Part shown: positions 16,022-64,000 of the stretch, piece by piece
Position numbering within the stretch: the stretch's first letter is position 1
Layout of the letters: the number at the start of each line of letters is the position of its first letter
IMG/VR virus record: IMGVR_UViG_3300032770_000017
Coordinates: 16,208 to 80,207 of that record
Source: a virus
DNA: 64,000 nt
Strand: one strand, 5' to 3'
Position numbers and translations under genes: made by a program
The notes under the pieces: model-generated
Databases searched by the model: none
The model's input: only the letters and a program-made list of their open reading frames with translations
What the model was told of the DNA's origin: nothing

Positions 16022-16027
16022 ATCCTA
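16022..16027 (-). promoter_or_regulatory. TAGGAT -10 box for reverse glycan operon; opposed -10 for fdtA
   Basis: On the reverse strand GGTTAGGATT places TAGGAT eight bases before the ATG at 16013. On the forward strand TAACCT (16026-16031) lies nine bases before the ATG at 16041. The two candidate -10 boxes overlap, giving a compact bidirectional promoter. Confidence 0.6.
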
Positions 16028-16040
16028 ACCTCTGTTGCCT

Positions 16041-16457
16041 ATGACCACCACGAACAGGCCGACCGTTGACGACTGCCGCCTCGTCAACCTGCCGAAGATC
16101 GCCGACCCGCGGGGCAATCTGTCCTTCGTCGAAGGCGGTAGGCATGTGCCCTTTGAGATACGCCGTGCGTTCTGGTTATATGACGTGCCCGGCGGCGAGA
16201 GCCGGGCTGGGCACGCCAACAAGGAACTGGAGCAGTTGATCGTCGCCGTGAGCGGCAGTTTCGATGTGCAGCTCGACGATGGGCAATCCACGAAGACCGT
16301 CACTCTGCGCCGCTCCTATCGCGGCCTGTACGTGCCCGGGATGATCTGGCGGGATATCTACAACTTCTCGTCGGGCTCGGTGTGCCTAGTGCTGTGCTCG
16401 GGCCTCTACGACCCCGATGACTACTTCCGCGACTACGGCGAATTCGTGAACGCATGA
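16041..16457 (+). CDS. fdtA: FdtA/QdtA-like dTDP-4-oxo-6-deoxyglucose 3,4-ketoisomerase
   Basis: 138 residues. ADPRGNLSFVEGGRHVPFEI (about residues 22-41), GHANKELEQLIVAVSGSFDV, GLYVPGMIWRDIYNFSSGSV and the end DPDDYFRDY are the signature of the FdtA/QdtA/WxcM-C cupin family. These enzymes shift the keto group of dTDP-4-keto-6-deoxyglucose to C3, before transamination to Fuc3N or Qui3N. The upstream RmlA and RmlB enzymes are not in the window, so host dTDP-4-keto-6-deoxyglucose is presumably used. It is coupled to the aminotransferase gene by an ATGA overlap. Confidence 0.9.
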   Translation: MTTTNRPTVDDCRLVNLPKIADPRGNLSFVEGGRHVPFEIRRAFWLYDVPGGESRAGHANKELEQLIVAVSGSFDVQLDDGQSTKTVTLRRSYRGLYVPGMIWRDIYNFSSGSVCLVLCSGLYDPDDYFRDYGEFVNA

Positions 16458-58504: not shown

Positions 58505-58940
58505 GCAAGTGACGCGTGAGGCCGAGAAAGACTGGGCGGCGCAAATCGAATACTGGCAGGAGCGGTGCTTCCGCCTGATGGACGAGAATGCCGAACTCAT
58601 CAACCAACTACAGGCGATCGAGGTCATGCTGCGACCTGGGCCGGGACAAGCAACGGTCGAGATCGCCCATGTCGTTGTCGAGGGGTGGCTTGAGCGGAGC
58701 TTGTGCCCGGCTGGGTTCCCGTACGCAGATGGGCACGACTGTCCCGCCGCGCACGACCCAGTCGAGGACGATCTGGTCGGGGACGGTTCGGAACTATGGG
58801 ATGTGACTCCCGTATGTGACGATTCTGGGGAGCGCGTTGTCACATTCGATCCCAGTACTCCACGGTACGACCCGGGTGCCTTCGGGCCTTCGTTCCCGCC
58901 AGTTCAGGACCCGACTTTCTCCACCTGGCGTCGCGAATGA
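58497..58940 (+). CDS. Coiled-coil early protein with acidic C-terminus
   Basis: 147 residues; ATG at 58497 preceded by GGGGAGGTAAGTG. EYWQERCFRLMDENAELINQ is a coiled coil; later CPAGFPYADGHDCPAAHDPV and an acidic, Pro-rich end. Unknown. It overlaps the WhiB start by four bases. Confidence 0.55.
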   Translation: MAEQVTREAEKDWAAQIEYWQERCFRLMDENAELINQLQAIEVMLRPGPGQATVEIAHVVVEGWLERSLCPAGFPYADGHDCPAAHDPVEDDLVGDGSELWDVTPVCDDSGERVVTFDPSTPRYDPGAFGPSFPPVQDPTFSTWRRE

Positions 58941-59185
58941 CCACACAGTCGTGGTTCTTCGGGGACGCCCCCTGGCGCGCCCTGGCCGCCTGCAAGGGCA
59001 AGCCCACCCGCTGGTGGTTCGATGGCACCAACGAGGAACGCGACCGTGCCCAGTCGATCTGCGCCCGCTGCCCCGTACGCGAGCCCTGCGCCGAGTTCGG
59101 CCGCAGCCAGCACCAGGGCCGCTGGGGAGGCGTGGACATGGAGGTGGAGCGGCGCCGGATGCGCCATCGGAGGCTGTCGGCATGA
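58937..59185 (+). CDS. WhiB-family Fe-S regulator
   Basis: 82 residues; ATG at 58937. Cys19, Cys42, Cys45 and Cys51 (C-x22-C-x2-C-x5-C) are the ligands of the WhiB [4Fe-4S] cluster, and RWGGVD follows as the G-x-WGG turn. A basic tail RRRMRHRRLS would contact DNA. WhiB proteins are found only in actinobacteria and their phages, so this gene is the best host marker here. Phage copies can interfere with host WhiB2-controlled division. That effect is not shown here. Confidence 0.9.
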   Translation: MTTQSWFFGDAPWRALAACKGKPTRWWFDGTNEERDRAQSICARCPVREPCAEFGRSQHQGRWGGVDMEVERRRMRHRRLSA

Positions 59186-59632: not shown

Positions 59633-60229
59633 ATGTGGCGATCCTTCGGCGCTGTCGGCCTGGCCGCGGCGCTTGTCCTGTCCTACGGGTGTGCCCAATC
59701 ACCCGCGCCCACTCACACCTCAACCGCCCACCGCACCACCCGGGCAGCCCTCGCCATCAATGCCGCCGCCGTGCTCGTCCCCGCCTGCCCAACGGCGCTC
59801 GACCCCGAAGGCCACCCGGTGGACTGCCACGGCTTCGTCACCGATGGCAGTCCTCAGCTGGACGACTTCCACTGTGTGGGTTCGCCCTTCCAGGTGTTCG
59901 TCTGCCTGGCAGCCCGTCACCCGACCTTCGGCGCCTTCCTGCTCGCCAAGACCGGCCCCGACCCTTCCATGGTCCCGTGCGGAGAGATGGTGGCCCGCTG
60001 GTACCCGCAACTTGCTCCCTACCCCTGGCCCATCGCCGAGATGGAGAAGATCATGTGCCGCGAGAGCGGTGGCAACCCATTGGCAGTCAACCGGTTCAGC
60101 GGTGCCTGCGGCCTGTTCCAGTTGCTCTCGTGCCCTCCCGGTGGATTGGATGGCTTTACAAACATCCGCCTCGCCTATCTCGACAAGTACCGTCCGAGCG
60201 GGCTGGCGCCGTGGAGCGAGACGGCTTAG
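59633..60229 (+). CDS. Exported lysozyme-like (SLT) lipoprotein candidate
   Basis: 198 residues; ATG at 59633 with AAAGGAG eight bases upstream. A signal peptide ends in SYGC (Cys20), an imperfect lipobox. The C-terminus has EKIMCRESGGNPLAVNRFSG with Glu144, then ACGLFQLLSCPPGG, the catalytic E-S-x-G and GLFQ motifs of lytic transglycosylases. Pairs of Cys suggest disulfides outside the cell. It lies among early genes, far from the lysis region, so roles in wall remodelling or superinfection exclusion are possible. Confidence 0.65.
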   Translation: MWRSFGAVGLAAALVLSYGCAQSPAPTHTSTAHRTTRAALAINAAAVLVPACPTALDPEGHPVDCHGFVTDGSPQLDDFHCVGSPFQVFVCLAARHPTFGAFLLAKTGPDPSMVPCGEMVARWYPQLAPYPWPIAEMEKIMCRESGGNPLAVNRFSGACGLFQLLSCPPGGLDGFTNIRLAYLDKYRPSGLAPWSETA

Positions 60230-60453
60230 GCCACCAGCCACCACTCCTCATCTTCGATGCGGTAGGAGACCCACGGGTAGTCCCACTCGACCATCTCGGC
60301 GAAATCCGTGGACTCCTCGCAGGTGTAGTGCACGCCGCGATGGGGCAGCGCGTGGTCGCGTGGGTGGTCGCACCCGAGCGGGGTGCCCCAGGGCTGGCGT
60401 ACCTGCGGGTGATGGGCAGGGCAGCGGGTGAGGCCGTCGGCGTCGCGCAGCAT
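60226..60453 (-). CDS. Small His/Cys-rich protein
   Basis: 75 residues; ATG at 60453 with AGGAGG just upstream. RCPAHHPQVRQPWGTPLGCD, HPRDHALPHRG and VHYTC give many possible zinc ligands; acidic aromatic end (DYPWVSYRIEDEEWWLV). It is convergent with the lysozyme-like gene. Confidence 0.5.
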   Translation of the reverse strand: MLRDADGLTRCPAHHPQVRQPWGTPLGCDHPRDHALPHRGVHYTCEESTDFAEMVEWDYPWVSYRIEDEEWWLVA

Positions 60454-60566
60454 GGCACCTCCTGGCGGGGTCTGGGCCGGGTCCGGCGCGGCTGTACCCA
60501 CTCGGTGGCCGCGATCAAACACCGGGGTTAGGAACCTCGGGCTAGACCTAGAGACTTCACATAGGT

Positions 60567-60572
60567 TAGGAT
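60567..60572 (+). promoter_or_regulatory. TAGGAT box of the IbrBA-like operon
   Basis: CTTCACATAGGTTAGGATTG places TAGGAT exactly six bases before the ATG at 60579. The surrounding sequence almost repeats that of the 46794 promoter. No clear -35. Confidence 0.65.
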
Positions 60573-60578
60573 TGATCC

Positions 60579-61277
60579 ATGACGTTGCTCGATCCGTCGT
60601 CCTGGGAGACGGCGCCCGATGTTGACGGAGCCCTGGCCGCGCTGGTCGCCGCCCTCGCGGGTGTGCAGGACCAGCGCGAGCGCGTGCGGCTGCTGAACAC
60701 CGTGCGCCGGGCCCTCCACGAGGTGTCGCCGCTGGCCCACCATCCGGTGGATTTCGTGGAATGGGTGCCCGTTGAGACGGTCCAAGCCAACGACTACAAC
60801 CCCAACGCCGTGGCACCTCCCGAGATGGAGTTGCTCCGTCTCTCCATCGACCACGACGGCTACACACAGCCTGTCGTGACCTATCTCGACGATTCGGGCA
60901 CTGTTGAGGTGGTCGACGGCTTCCACCGCAACCGTGTCGCCCGTGAGTACCCCGAAGTGGCTGACAGCCTGCTCGGCTTCCTCCCTGCCGTGCGTATCCG
61001 CGCCGAGTCGTCCGACCGCTCCGACCGCATCGCCGCCACGATCCGCCACAACCGGGCGCGCGGGAAGCACCAAGTGGTCAAGATGACCGACATTGTCCTC
61101 GAACTGAAACGGCGCAACTGGTCGGACGCGAAGATCAGTAAAAACCTGGGCATGGACGCCGACGAGGTATTGCGCCTCTCCCAGATCGGTGGCTTGGCTG
61201 ACGTGTTCGCCGATCGGGAGTTCTCACTGGCATGGGAGGTGGAGGAGGATGACCTCGACGACTCGGCCGTGGGCTGA
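60579..61277 (+). CDS. IbrB-like ParB-domain protein
   Basis: 232 residues; leaderless ATG at 60579. NDYNPN (71-76), VDGFHRNRVAREY (112-124), and ATIRHNRARGKHQVVKMTDI (153-172) followed by LGMDADEVLRLSQ are typical for the IbrB type of ParB-like proteins that stand beside PAPS-reductase-like IbrA. The ParB fold may bind CTP or DNA. Coupled by overlap to the next gene, which is coupled to an IbrA-like gene. Confidence 0.8.
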   Translation: MTLLDPSSWETAPDVDGALAALVAALAGVQDQRERVRLLNTVRRALHEVSPLAHHPVDFVEWVPVETVQANDYNPNAVAPPEMELLRLSIDHDGYTQPVVTYLDDSGTVEVVDGFHRNRVAREYPEVADSLLGFLPAVRIRAESSDRSDRIAATIRHNRARGKHQVVKMTDIVLELKRRNWSDAKISKNLGMDADEVLRLSQIGGLADVFADREFSLAWEVEEDDLDDSAVG

Positions 61278-61632
61278 TTGGGAGGATTGGCACGCTGGCC
61301 TCTATGCCCGCCGCCTAGTCCGCGCTGAGAGCATCGTCGCCTCTCTTGCCCTGCTCGCCGACGCCGACACCTTCCTAGAAGTCGGCCACGAGATGGTGCG
61401 CACCTGGCCCCACGCAGCTCGCCACAACCTTGACCATATGTGGAGCGGCCGCCGAGCTTGGATCGGCCAAGCGTCGTGCTGCTATGCCCACGGTGCCACC
61501 GCGGACGAGACAAAGCAGGCTTGGGGCGGCCTAGCCAATGCGGTACAGGCCAGGGCCAATGCCATTGCCGATGAGATCGCCGACGCTTATCACCGAGGAT
61601 GGCGATATGCCCAAACGCTATTTACCGATTGA
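61249..61632 (+). CDS. Conserved middle gene of the IbrB/IbrA-type cassette
   Basis: 127 residues; ATG at 61249 with GGGAGG upstream, overlapping the ParB-like gene by 29 bases. DWEDWHAGLYARRLVRAESI, EMVRTWPHAARHNLDHMWSG and RRAWIGQASCCYAHGATADE are seen. A protein of this kind often sits between ParB-like and PAPS-reductase-like genes in phages and mobile elements. Function unknown; probably a third subunit. Confidence 0.65.
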   Translation: MTSTTRPWADWEDWHAGLYARRLVRAESIVASLALLADADTFLEVGHEMVRTWPHAARHNLDHMWSGRRAWIGQASCCYAHGATADETKQAWGGLANAVQARANAIADEIADAYHRGWRYAQTLFTD

Positions 61633-62887
61633 CGTTTGCACCGCGGCTGAGGAACGAGTCCGATGGGTATTCGAGATGTTCGGGCGCGTCTATATTTCGT
61701 ACAGCGCCGGCAAGGACAGCACTGTGCTTCTTCACCTTGCGGCTCGGGAGGCCCGCCGTCGTGACCGCCGTCTCGGGGTGTTGCTGATCGACTTGGAAGG
61801 CCAGTACCGGCTCACGATCGACCATGCCCAGCGGCAGATAGCTGCCTATTCGGACGTGATCGACCCCTATTGGGTGTGCCTGCCGATCGCCCTGCGCAAT
61901 GCCGTGTCGGTGTTCCAACCGAAGTGGAAGTGCTGGGACGCCGCCGTTCCTGAGTCGTGGATCAGGGAGCCTCCCGAGGGCGCGATCACCGATCCCGCCT
62001 TCTTCCCGTTCTTCCGCGACGGCATGGAGTTCGAGGAGTTCGTGCCCCTCTTCGGCGAGTGGTACGCCGACGGCCAAGAGACGGCCTGCCTCGTCGGCAT
62101 CCGTTCCGACGAAAGCCTCAACCGGTACCGCACGATCGCGTCCTCGTCAAAGGTGCGCCGCGATGGCAGGCAATGGACCACCGTGGTCACGCCGAATGTG
62201 GTGAATGTCTACCCCATTTACGATTGGCGCACCGAGGACATCTGGACGTGGCACGCGAAGAACCCCGAGGCCGAGCACAATCACCTGTACGACCTGATGC
62301 ACAAAGCCGGGCTCCCGTTGGCCCATCAACGCATCTGCCAGCCGTACGGCGACGACCAACGGCGGGGACTGTGGCTGTTCCACATCATCGAACCGGAGAC
62401 ATGGGCACGCGTAGTCGCCCGAGTCAATGGTGCGAATGGTGGGGCGCTGTACGTGCAGGAATGGGGCAGCATCAACGGGTACCGCCGTATCACCAAGCCC
62501 GAAGGCCACTCCTGGCGGTCCTTTGCCGAATTGCTTCTTTCGTCGATGCCGCCTCCTATGGAACGCCACTACCGCGACAAGATCCTGCTGCACATCAAGT
62601 GGTGGCAGGAACGTGGCTTCGCCACTGGCATCCCCGACGAGGCACCCTATGAACTGGAAGCGGCGAGGAAGGCCCCGAGCTGGCGCCGGGTCTGCAAGTC
62701 CCTTCTGCGCAATGACTACTGGGGCAAGGGGCTCGGTTTCTCCCAGCACAAGAGCGACGCTTACAAGGCGTACCTTGACCTGATGCGCCGCCGCCGGGCC
62801 AAGTGGGGTGTGGACGAGAATGCCCTTGAACTGCCCTTGTCCGAGCTGGAGGACGCGCTGGAGATGGCGGGTGCCACCGATGGGTGA
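61607..62887 (+). CDS. IbrA-like PAPS reductase / DUF3440 protein
   Basis: 426 residues; ATG at 61607 with GAGG upstream. YISYSAGKDSTVLLHLAARE (residues 29-48) is the PP-loop of PAPS reductase-like ATP pyrophosphatases. ACLVGIRSDESLNRYRTIAS, VYPIYDWRTEDIWTWH and LMHKAGLPLAHQRICQPYGDDQRRGL are typical for IbrA/DUF3440. Related PP-loop enzymes include DndC of DNA phosphorothioation. Here the pair could alter nucleic acid or regulate host genes; no cysteine desulfurase is seen. Confidence 0.82.
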   Translation: MPKRYLPIDVCTAAEERVRWVFEMFGRVYISYSAGKDSTVLLHLAAREARRRDRRLGVLLIDLEGQYRLTIDHAQRQIAAYSDVIDPYWVCLPIALRNAVSVFQPKWKCWDAAVPESWIREPPEGAITDPAFFPFFRDGMEFEEFVPLFGEWYADGQETACLVGIRSDESLNRYRTIASSSKVRRDGRQWTTVVTPNVVNVYPIYDWRTEDIWTWHAKNPEAEHNHLYDLMHKAGLPLAHQRICQPYGDDQRRGLWLFHIIEPETWARVVARVNGANGGALYVQEWGSINGYRRITKPEGHSWRSFAELLLSSMPPPMERHYRDKILLHIKWWQERGFATGIPDEAPYELEAARKAPSWRRVCKSLLRNDYWGKGLGFSQHKSDAYKAYLDLMRRRRAKWGVDENALELPLSELEDALEMAGATDG

Positions 62888-63048: not shown

Positions 63049-63603
63049 ATGTCGGCCCAACCGGATTACCCGACGTGTGGTGCGAAGCACACCCGCGATG
63101 GAGACCCCTGCATCAAGCCGGCCGGCTGGGGTACCGAGCACGCAGGCATCGGCAGGTGCAAGTTCCACGGCGGCTCGACGCCTTCCCACGTCGCCGCGGC
63201 CCGGAAGGCCATGGCCCAGCAATCCGTCGCCACGTTGGGCCTCCCGCGGGACGTGGACCCGCAACAGGCGCTCTTGGAAGAGGTGCACCGCACCGCCGGG
63301 CATGTCGCCTGGCTGAGCGATCTAGTTGGCGATCTGGACCCGCTGGACCTGTCCGACGGCGAAGGGTTCAGCGTGTGGGTGCGGCTCTACCAAGCCGAGC
63401 GTAAGCACCTCGTGGAGGTCACCAAAGCGGCCATCGCCTGTGGCCTGGCAGCACGGGAGGTCGAGCTGGCCGAGCGTGAGGGCGCGCTGTTGGCCCAGGT
63501 AATCCTTCGCATCCTCAGCGACCTCGAACTGAGCGACATCCAACGGGAGATGGCGCCGGGTGTTGTGCGTAGGCACCTGACCGCGGTCAAGGCTGCCAGT
63601 TGA
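63049..63603 (+). CDS. Terminase small subunit
   Basis: 184 residues; ATG at 63049. CGAKHTRDGDPCIKPAGWGT (about residues 10-29), CKFHGGSTPSH and the helical remainder match actinophage small terminases with an N-terminal zinc knuckle. The small subunit recognises packaging sites. TGA overlaps the large terminase start. Confidence 0.75.
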   Translation: MSAQPDYPTCGAKHTRDGDPCIKPAGWGTEHAGIGRCKFHGGSTPSHVAAARKAMAQQSVATLGLPRDVDPQQALLEEVHRTAGHVAWLSDLVGDLDPLDLSDGEGFSVWVRLYQAERKHLVEVTKAAIACGLAAREVELAEREGALLAQVILRILSDLELSDIQREMAPGVVRRHLTAVKAAS

Positions 63604-64000
63604 CCCTTGCCGACCAATCGGTCTGGTCGCGGGCGATCGACCGGGCGCTCGAAGACGTTGACCGTGCCTTCGCCCCTGTGCCGAAGGATGAGGAATGGCG
63701 GCTCACTCCAGCCACCATGGCCCATCACCTCAGTCGTGGCCGGATCCGCCTGTGGCCGTACTTCGCCCTGCTCGGCCAGCGCTTCGCCGACGCAGTGGAA
63801 GGACGCGCGCCCCGCCAGATATGGAACATCCCCGCCCGGTACGGCAAGTCGCTGATCGCCTCCCAGTGGGGGCCGGCGTGGGCCTTCGATCGCACGCCGT
63901 CGCTCAAGATCATCCTGACCAGCTACGGCGACTCCCTGGCCGACAAGAACGCCCTGGCCGTGCGCGACCTGCTCAGGGAGCACAAGGGCGTCCTGCGGTG
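63600..64000 (+). CDS. Terminase large subunit, 3' end cut by window edge
   Basis: 133 residues visible from TTG at 63600, which overlaps the small-subunit stop. GRIRLWPYFALLGQRFADAV, IWNIPARYGKSLIASQWGPA (Walker A region PARYGKS) and IILTSYGDSLADKNALAVRD are the start of the terminase ATPase. It would package DNA into heads. The reading frame runs off the right edge and would continue toward the portal, which is missing from the window. Confidence 0.85.
   Translation, partial: MTLADQSVWSRAIDRALEDVDRAFAPVPKDEEWRLTPATMAHHLSRGRIRLWPYFALLGQRFADAVEGRAPRQIWNIPARYGKSLIASQWGPAWAFDRTPSLKIILTSYGDSLADKNALAVRDLLREHKGVLR

Follow-up and report, generated by a model that had tools for sequence, protein, structure and literature searches.

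The closest described counterparts of the locus analysed here are the IbrA/IbrB proteins of E. coli and the chromosomal YbdN/YbdM pair, in which a DUF3440 PP-loop protein is likewise encoded beside a ParB-like protein. E. coli IbrAB is reported to activate prophage eib genes (Sandt et al. 2002, as cited in PMC6008420). ParB-superfamily proteins also occur as partners of DNA-modification enzymes, as described for DndB and DpdB (PMC10853773, PMC12839542). Pairs of the IbrA/IbrB type are widespread in phages, where IbrA is repeatedly labelled a sulphur-metabolism gene despite lacking the reductase motif.

The present locus lies in an IMG/VR virus record of 80,207 bases, of which positions 16208–80207 were analysed; this whole stretch of 64,000 nucleotides (GC 67%) is referred to as the window. 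An earlier note had proposed an IbrB-like/small protein/IbrA-like cassette with overlapping reading frames, and all three frames are present with the similarities it described. They lie on one strand, with an overlap of 29 nt between IbrB and the middle protein, denoted M, and of 26 nt between M and IbrA. In window coordinates, the features of the cassette and its upstream region are:

60232–60453 (−): small ORF of 74 aa with its ATG at 60453 and its stop codon immediately below 60232 (whole frame 60229–60453), AGGAGG upstream, AGGAGGTGCCATG on the minus strand
60526–60533 (+): GGTTAGGA, 8-bp direct repeat, copy 1, with copy 2 at a distance of 38 bp
60543–60548 (+): TAGACC as −35-like hexamer, separated from the −10 box by 18 nt
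60546–60566 (+): inverted repeat ACCTA-N11-TAGGT, a possible operator that overlaps the promoter
60564–60572 (+): GGTTAGGAT, copy 2 of the direct repeat, which includes the −10 box TAGGAT (60567–60572), 6 nt before the IbrB ATG
60579–61277 (+): IbrB-like ParB/Srx-type protein, 232 aa, start ATG at 60579, with DGFHR, NRARGKH and a helix-turn-helix-like region
61249–61632 (+): M, the conserved middle protein of 127 aa, modelled as all-helical, family with IbrAB neighbours
61607–62887 (+): IbrA-like PP-loop/DUF3440 protein, 426 aa, start ATG at 61607, with SxGKDS and a C-terminal domain at about residues 318–411

The cassette just precedes the small and large terminase genes. The large terminase gene crosses the record ends (window 63600–63998 and record 1–1234) with a near-identical join and no end repeat called; as it is cut off at the end of the record and continues from the beginning, a circularly permuted and nearly complete genome is probable. 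An actinobacterial host is indicated by a WhiB-family transcription factor gene at window 58937–59185, the family being present among 14 control genomes only in Corynebacterium. A tyrosine integrase was not found in the phage genome, nor did the 80-kb record contain a PF13614 match for a ParA partner, and the locus was not classed as a ParAB partition system. RecT-like, Gam-like, DEAD-helicase and DnaB-like genes are located about 7–13 kb upstream of the cassette. The recognisable members among 145 cassette-neighbour proteins are mostly DnaB-like helicases, replication initiators, RusA, exonucleases, HNH nucleases, helicases and terminase, a tally that is purely descriptive; Dnd partner genes were absent from the commonest families of the neighbours scanned. 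Next to one M-A-B cassette (L155), a 115-aa protein (L155:3506–3850) gives a match to the C-terminal domain of the RNA polymerase alpha subunit (E 1.7e-18), a possible link to transcription.

Because the small upstream ORF is divergent, an own promoter is expected for the cassette. This ORF, which borders the promoter region, shows a codon-position GC of 0.72/0.48/0.89 and no Pfam match; its ribosome-binding site is strong. The repeat GGTTAGGA occurs in six copies in the window as compared to 0.53 expected, two of them within the IbrB promoter (60526–60571) and the others at 16023, 45732, 46814 and 48382. All nine TAGGAT hexamers in the window are part of TTAGGAT, and seven of these nine are found 6–9 nt before the start codon of an ORF that encodes ≥60 aa, versus 8.9% for permuted hexamers (p about 1e-6). 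A TTGAC-like −35 element at a distance of 16–19 nt accompanies 7 of 13 sites (background 5.4%). Boxes preceding start codons are located at window positions 16027(−), 29762(−), 40033, 50017, 54504, 56782 and 60567, and at record positions 1250 and 3262. The TTAGGAT series probably constitutes the phage's own set of leaderless promoters, and the IbrB and DEAD helicase genes share both promoter type and box position. A simple sigma-70 scan found no promoter, as its consensus does not cover TAGGAT. The inverted repeat ACCTA-N11-TAGGT matches once against 0.01 expected, the pattern having been picked after inspection of the sequence. In the nearest relative, L023, an ordinary GAGGAGG site takes the place of the TTAGGAT box. 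The own leaderless promoter suggested by the earlier note is supported by the overall pattern, i.e. a −10 box directly before the ATG, a −35-like element and genome-wide recurrence. Leaderless transcription of IbrB is likely on these grounds, albeit AGGA within the box could also be a ribosome-binding site.

IbrB matches the ParB-like family phrog_2159 (E 7.8e-66) and has the N-terminal domain of the ParB/Srx type; its score against Pfam ParB_N is 18.8 bits, below the cut-off of 26.3. The conserved DGFHR and NRARGKH motifs presumably belong to a ParB/Srx nucleotide site, followed by the helix-turn-helix-like segment. IbrA contains a PAPS-reductase-like PP-loop domain (PAPS_reduct, PF01507, E 1.7e-11, 44.9 bits, cut-off 22.5) and then DUF3440 (PF11922, E 7.3e-33, 114.3 bits, cut-off 25), which together with the adjacent ibrB gene assigns it to the IbrA/DUF3440 family. 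Ten residues, S33, G35, K36, D37 and S38 of SxGKDS as well as D62, E64, R166, E169 and R173, are invariant in 145 of 145 relatives. No cysteine is invariant in this set, the best-conserved one reaching 81%, and an ECG-type reductase motif occurs neither in IbrA nor in the relatives. Models of CysH gave 18–23 bits at cut-offs of 154–165, which likewise speaks against a PAPS reductase. The structure model of IbrA (pLDDT 84) has FAD synthase, APS/PAPS reductase and CysD as nearest PDB structures (Z 14–15, residues ~1–260), with the PP-loop folds TilS (MesJ), NcsA and TtuA further away (Z 10–12). Neither of the adenylyl transferases FAD synthase and CysD needs a catalytic cysteine. From the likeness to these enzymes and the lack of an invariant cysteine we infer that IbrA is an adenylate-making ATP pyrophosphatase and not a reductase, and the label "PAPS reductase" is probably wrong in light of the alignment and the model. 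For a cysteine desulphurase, as needed by phosphorothioation of the DndC type, this genome gave only a sub-threshold match of 16.4 bits; a host enzyme could serve. Sequence searches of solved structures returned no convincing relative for IbrB, M or IbrA.

None of Pfam, NCBIfam, PADLOC and PHROGs yielded a significant match to M. Its model, built from the window and scan-derived sequence rows only, is all-helical with seven helices (pLDDT 91.8). Across 130 sequences, G73 is retained in 130, E12 in 129 and C77 in 123. Comparison with the PDB gave a best Foldseek E of 2.5 and VIA Z ≤3.5, where the absent match does not prove a new fold; among viral models, one unnamed 116-aa entry was matched.

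The family of M was traced by several scans, which after pooling and deduplication yielded 197 distinct loci, nearly all of them viral. Each of the 197 has IbrA and/or IbrB adjacent on the same strand, and both are present at each of the 130 loci away from contig ends, an association that greatly exceeds chance. These counts are lower bounds, as the pattern scans were strict and M genes without the motif AW[IL]G[QH]A[SA]C would have been missed. A scan of IMG/VR with the M sequence of the window alone returned 16 loci with IbrA adjacent in each, and IbrB wherever the contig permitted. The M profile matched 195 loci, and the best 80 of these 195 show the same adjacency. Seeding with a distant mycobacteriophage M added 77 loci, all of them with IbrB and 74 also with IbrA; in the three others, the cassette begins ≤0.4 kb from the contig end on the side where IbrA would be expected. 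Conversely, 78 loci of IMG/VR encode close IbrA relatives (identity ≥58%), and M was detected in 73 of them. The conservation of the middle protein asserted in the earlier note is borne out by this collection; its exclusive occurrence with IbrAB, and the existence of the IbrA C-terminal domain as a gene of its own, go beyond that note. A stricter M pattern applied to 84,980 species genomes retrieved three loci, one of them spurious, which argues for a largely viral distribution; only one GTDB genome has a clear M, and of the 98 genomes searched for it, the 97 that are relatives of this genome all lack it. Isolated phages carrying M include Pseudomonas phage Amjad_SA, Microcystis phage Mwe-JY13 and Pseudoalteromonas phage XCL1123. 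Two candidates were rejected as M: the gene that precedes IbrA in Chlorobiaceae phage CV-1-33, and an actinobacterial genome match (L107, E 0.008). One locus (L124) has two M genes in tandem, in the order B-M-M-A. M is lacking in several close relatives, the nearest of all (L023) among them, and also in E. coli YbdNM; not every IbrAB pair thus needs it. Judged by its genomic company, M is a genuine third part of the IbrAB system in phages. A description of M was not found in the literature searched, which covered few subscription journals and gives weak evidence of novelty.

The cassette has been rearranged repeatedly. Orders B-M-A, M-A-B and A-B-M occur, with at least 15 interchanges on an IbrA tree of 120 sequences, and adjacency was retained throughout. 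On the same tree the presence of M changes eight times; IbrA proteins without M include E. coli YbdN, that of Escherichia phage PhiR5_2 and those of the tested Flavobacterium and Streptococcus phages. IbrB and M are fused in a single ORF in two loci (L063 and L065). Moreover, a second lineage encodes beside M a separate protein of ~90–110 aa that is homologous to residues ~318–411 of the window IbrA, and IbrA of this lineage retains only a shorter match to this C-terminal domain. The free-standing domain adjoins M in L007, L036, L048, L186 and about 80 other loci. Adjacency kept through rearrangement, in combination with the B-M fusion and the separation of the domain, is strong evidence for one functional unit. 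This comparative record shows IbrB, M and IbrA as a single unit, with the C-terminal domain of IbrA as a separable module of it. The distances of IbrA and IbrB are correlated (r 0.84); those of M correlate weakly with either (r about 0.2), which suggests that M may be exchanged between cassettes. Such a weak correlation would be expected if M was swapped in this way or is under different evolutionary pressure, and the mirror-tree analysis did not separate the M-A link from the M-B link. The IbrAB pair is already known; for the exclusive partner M, the B-M fusion and the separable C-terminal domain, no description was found in the literature searched.

Taken as one multi-subunit phage system, the cassette could operate as follows. 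IbrA would act as an ATP pyrophosphatase whose product is an adenylated intermediate, much as with CysD or FAD synthase. IbrB would be the ParB/Srx-like nucleotide-binding and DNA-binding subunit that targets DNA, and M a helical adaptor that works with IbrB and the C-terminal domain and links IbrB to IbrA; the sequences and models point to these roles. With lower confidence, the complex would be expressed early together with the phage replication and recombination genes, here from the leaderless promoter. Similarly, with lower confidence, it would modify nucleic acid in an ATP-dependent reaction that IbrB directs to particular sites, phage DNA being the most likely substrate. Any change in prophage gene expression of the kind reported for E. 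coli IbrAB would then be a consequence of the modification. The modification reading is preferred because of the invariant PP-loop residues, the lack of an invariant cysteine and the replication and recombination gene context. Against the scheme as a whole stand the cassettes that do without M and the weak correlation of M distances with those of IbrA and IbrB. Still, ParB-directed, ATP-dependent modification of nucleic acid is put forward as a tentative assignment, held with clearly less than even confidence, and its product is a guess.

The main rival is transcriptional co-activation, in which IbrB binds promoters, IbrA and M serve as enzymatic or structural co-activators and the DNA is chemically unchanged. 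The only experiments on record for IbrAB, according to papers that cite Sandt et al. 2002 (PMC6008420), describe transcriptional activation, namely that of the E. coli prophage eib genes, which counts against modification and in favour of this rival. YbdM is moreover a predicted transcription factor and ybdNM adjoins the regulator citR, IbrB has its helix-turn-helix-like region, and the repeats of the promoter region could be operators. A protein acting purely in transcription would, however, hardly be expected to keep an invariant PP-loop active site, and the cassette genes sit among replication and packaging genes in diverse phages. Co-activation is in our judgement a serious possibility, albeit rather unlikely. 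Alternatively, the three proteins could interfere with a host defence or keep other phages out. The cassette is mobile, sporadic, shuffled and almost confined to viral contigs, and a DUF3440/ParB pair has been listed as a putative toxin-antitoxin in Listeria through guilt by association; by contrast, PADLOC defence proteins were unmatched apart from weak PP-loop matches and the neighbours are not defence genes, so that we regard such a function as unlikely.

Modification of RNA or tRNA by IbrA, with specificity conferred by IbrB and M, would agree with the presence of TilS, NcsA and TtuA among the structural neighbours. It fits poorly with a ParB-like partner that has a DNA-binding-type region and with the lack of conservation of the cysteines of the tRNA-thiolase kind, and is considered improbable. 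Even less credit can be given to a true PAPS reductase for sulphate assimilation: the Pfam domain and the PHROG label account for this annotation in many phages, but the missing ECG-type motif and invariant cysteine, the low CysH scores and the constant pairing with a ParB-like gene make it very improbable. The same low probability applies to M as an unrelated hitchhiker. Some IbrAB cassettes, the nearest relative included, do without M, and its mirror-tree correlation is weak; yet M never occurs apart from IbrAB in 197 loci, stays through changes of gene order and is found fused to IbrB. Returning to the preferred reading, we consider it possible but doubtful that IbrB, M, IbrA and the separable C-terminal domain make up a previously undescribed ParB-directed adenylylating or nucleic-acid-modifying phage complex, to which the label of PAPS reductase auxiliary metabolism is widely but wrongly given.

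The way in which the IbrAB pair works becomes more accessible through its exclusive third partner and the separable fourth module. The analysis defines a set of proteins to be purified jointly and natural B-M fusions, and the phages Gaia and Nebkiss with their host M. smegmatis mc2 155 provide a laboratory system that allows removal of the individual genes. "PAPS reductase" annotations in viromes deserve re-examination.

In comparison with the known systems, the fold of IbrA residues ~1–260 is common to CysH PAPS/APS reductase, CysD ATP sulphurylase and eukaryotic FAD synthase, whereas IbrA differs in the lack of the reductase cysteine, in its additional DUF3440 and C-terminal domains and in its ParB-like partner. 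The phosphorothioation proteins DndC/DndB and the deazaguanine protein DpdB likewise combine a modification enzyme with a ParB-superfamily partner, the PP-loop being present in DndC. The earlier comparison with DndC holds at the level of the fold and fails beyond it: the DndC model TIGR03183 gave 23.4 bits, far below the cut-off of 290.4, and neither an invariant cysteine nor, in the commonest families of the scanned neighbours, Dnd partners were found, so that IbrA is not assigned to DndC. The E. coli ybdN/ybdM genes overlap by 28 nt (L191:3748–5570), resembling the overlaps in the window. IbrA/IbrB and YbdN/YbdM of E. coli differ from the present cassette in having two genes in the order A-B, no M and a separate branch of the IbrA tree. 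The full set is encoded by Mycobacterium phage Nebkiss, with genes 103 (IbrA), 104 (IbrB), 106 (M, E 1.6e-35) and 107 (free C-terminal domain), although in the different order A-B-(GIY-YIG)-M-c and with 106 and 107 annotated as hypothetical. Gaia contains an IbrA match of the same length and identity as Nebkiss; both phages infect M. smegmatis mc2 155, and in both the pair is annotated as "PAPS reductase-like" and "ParB-like nuclease".
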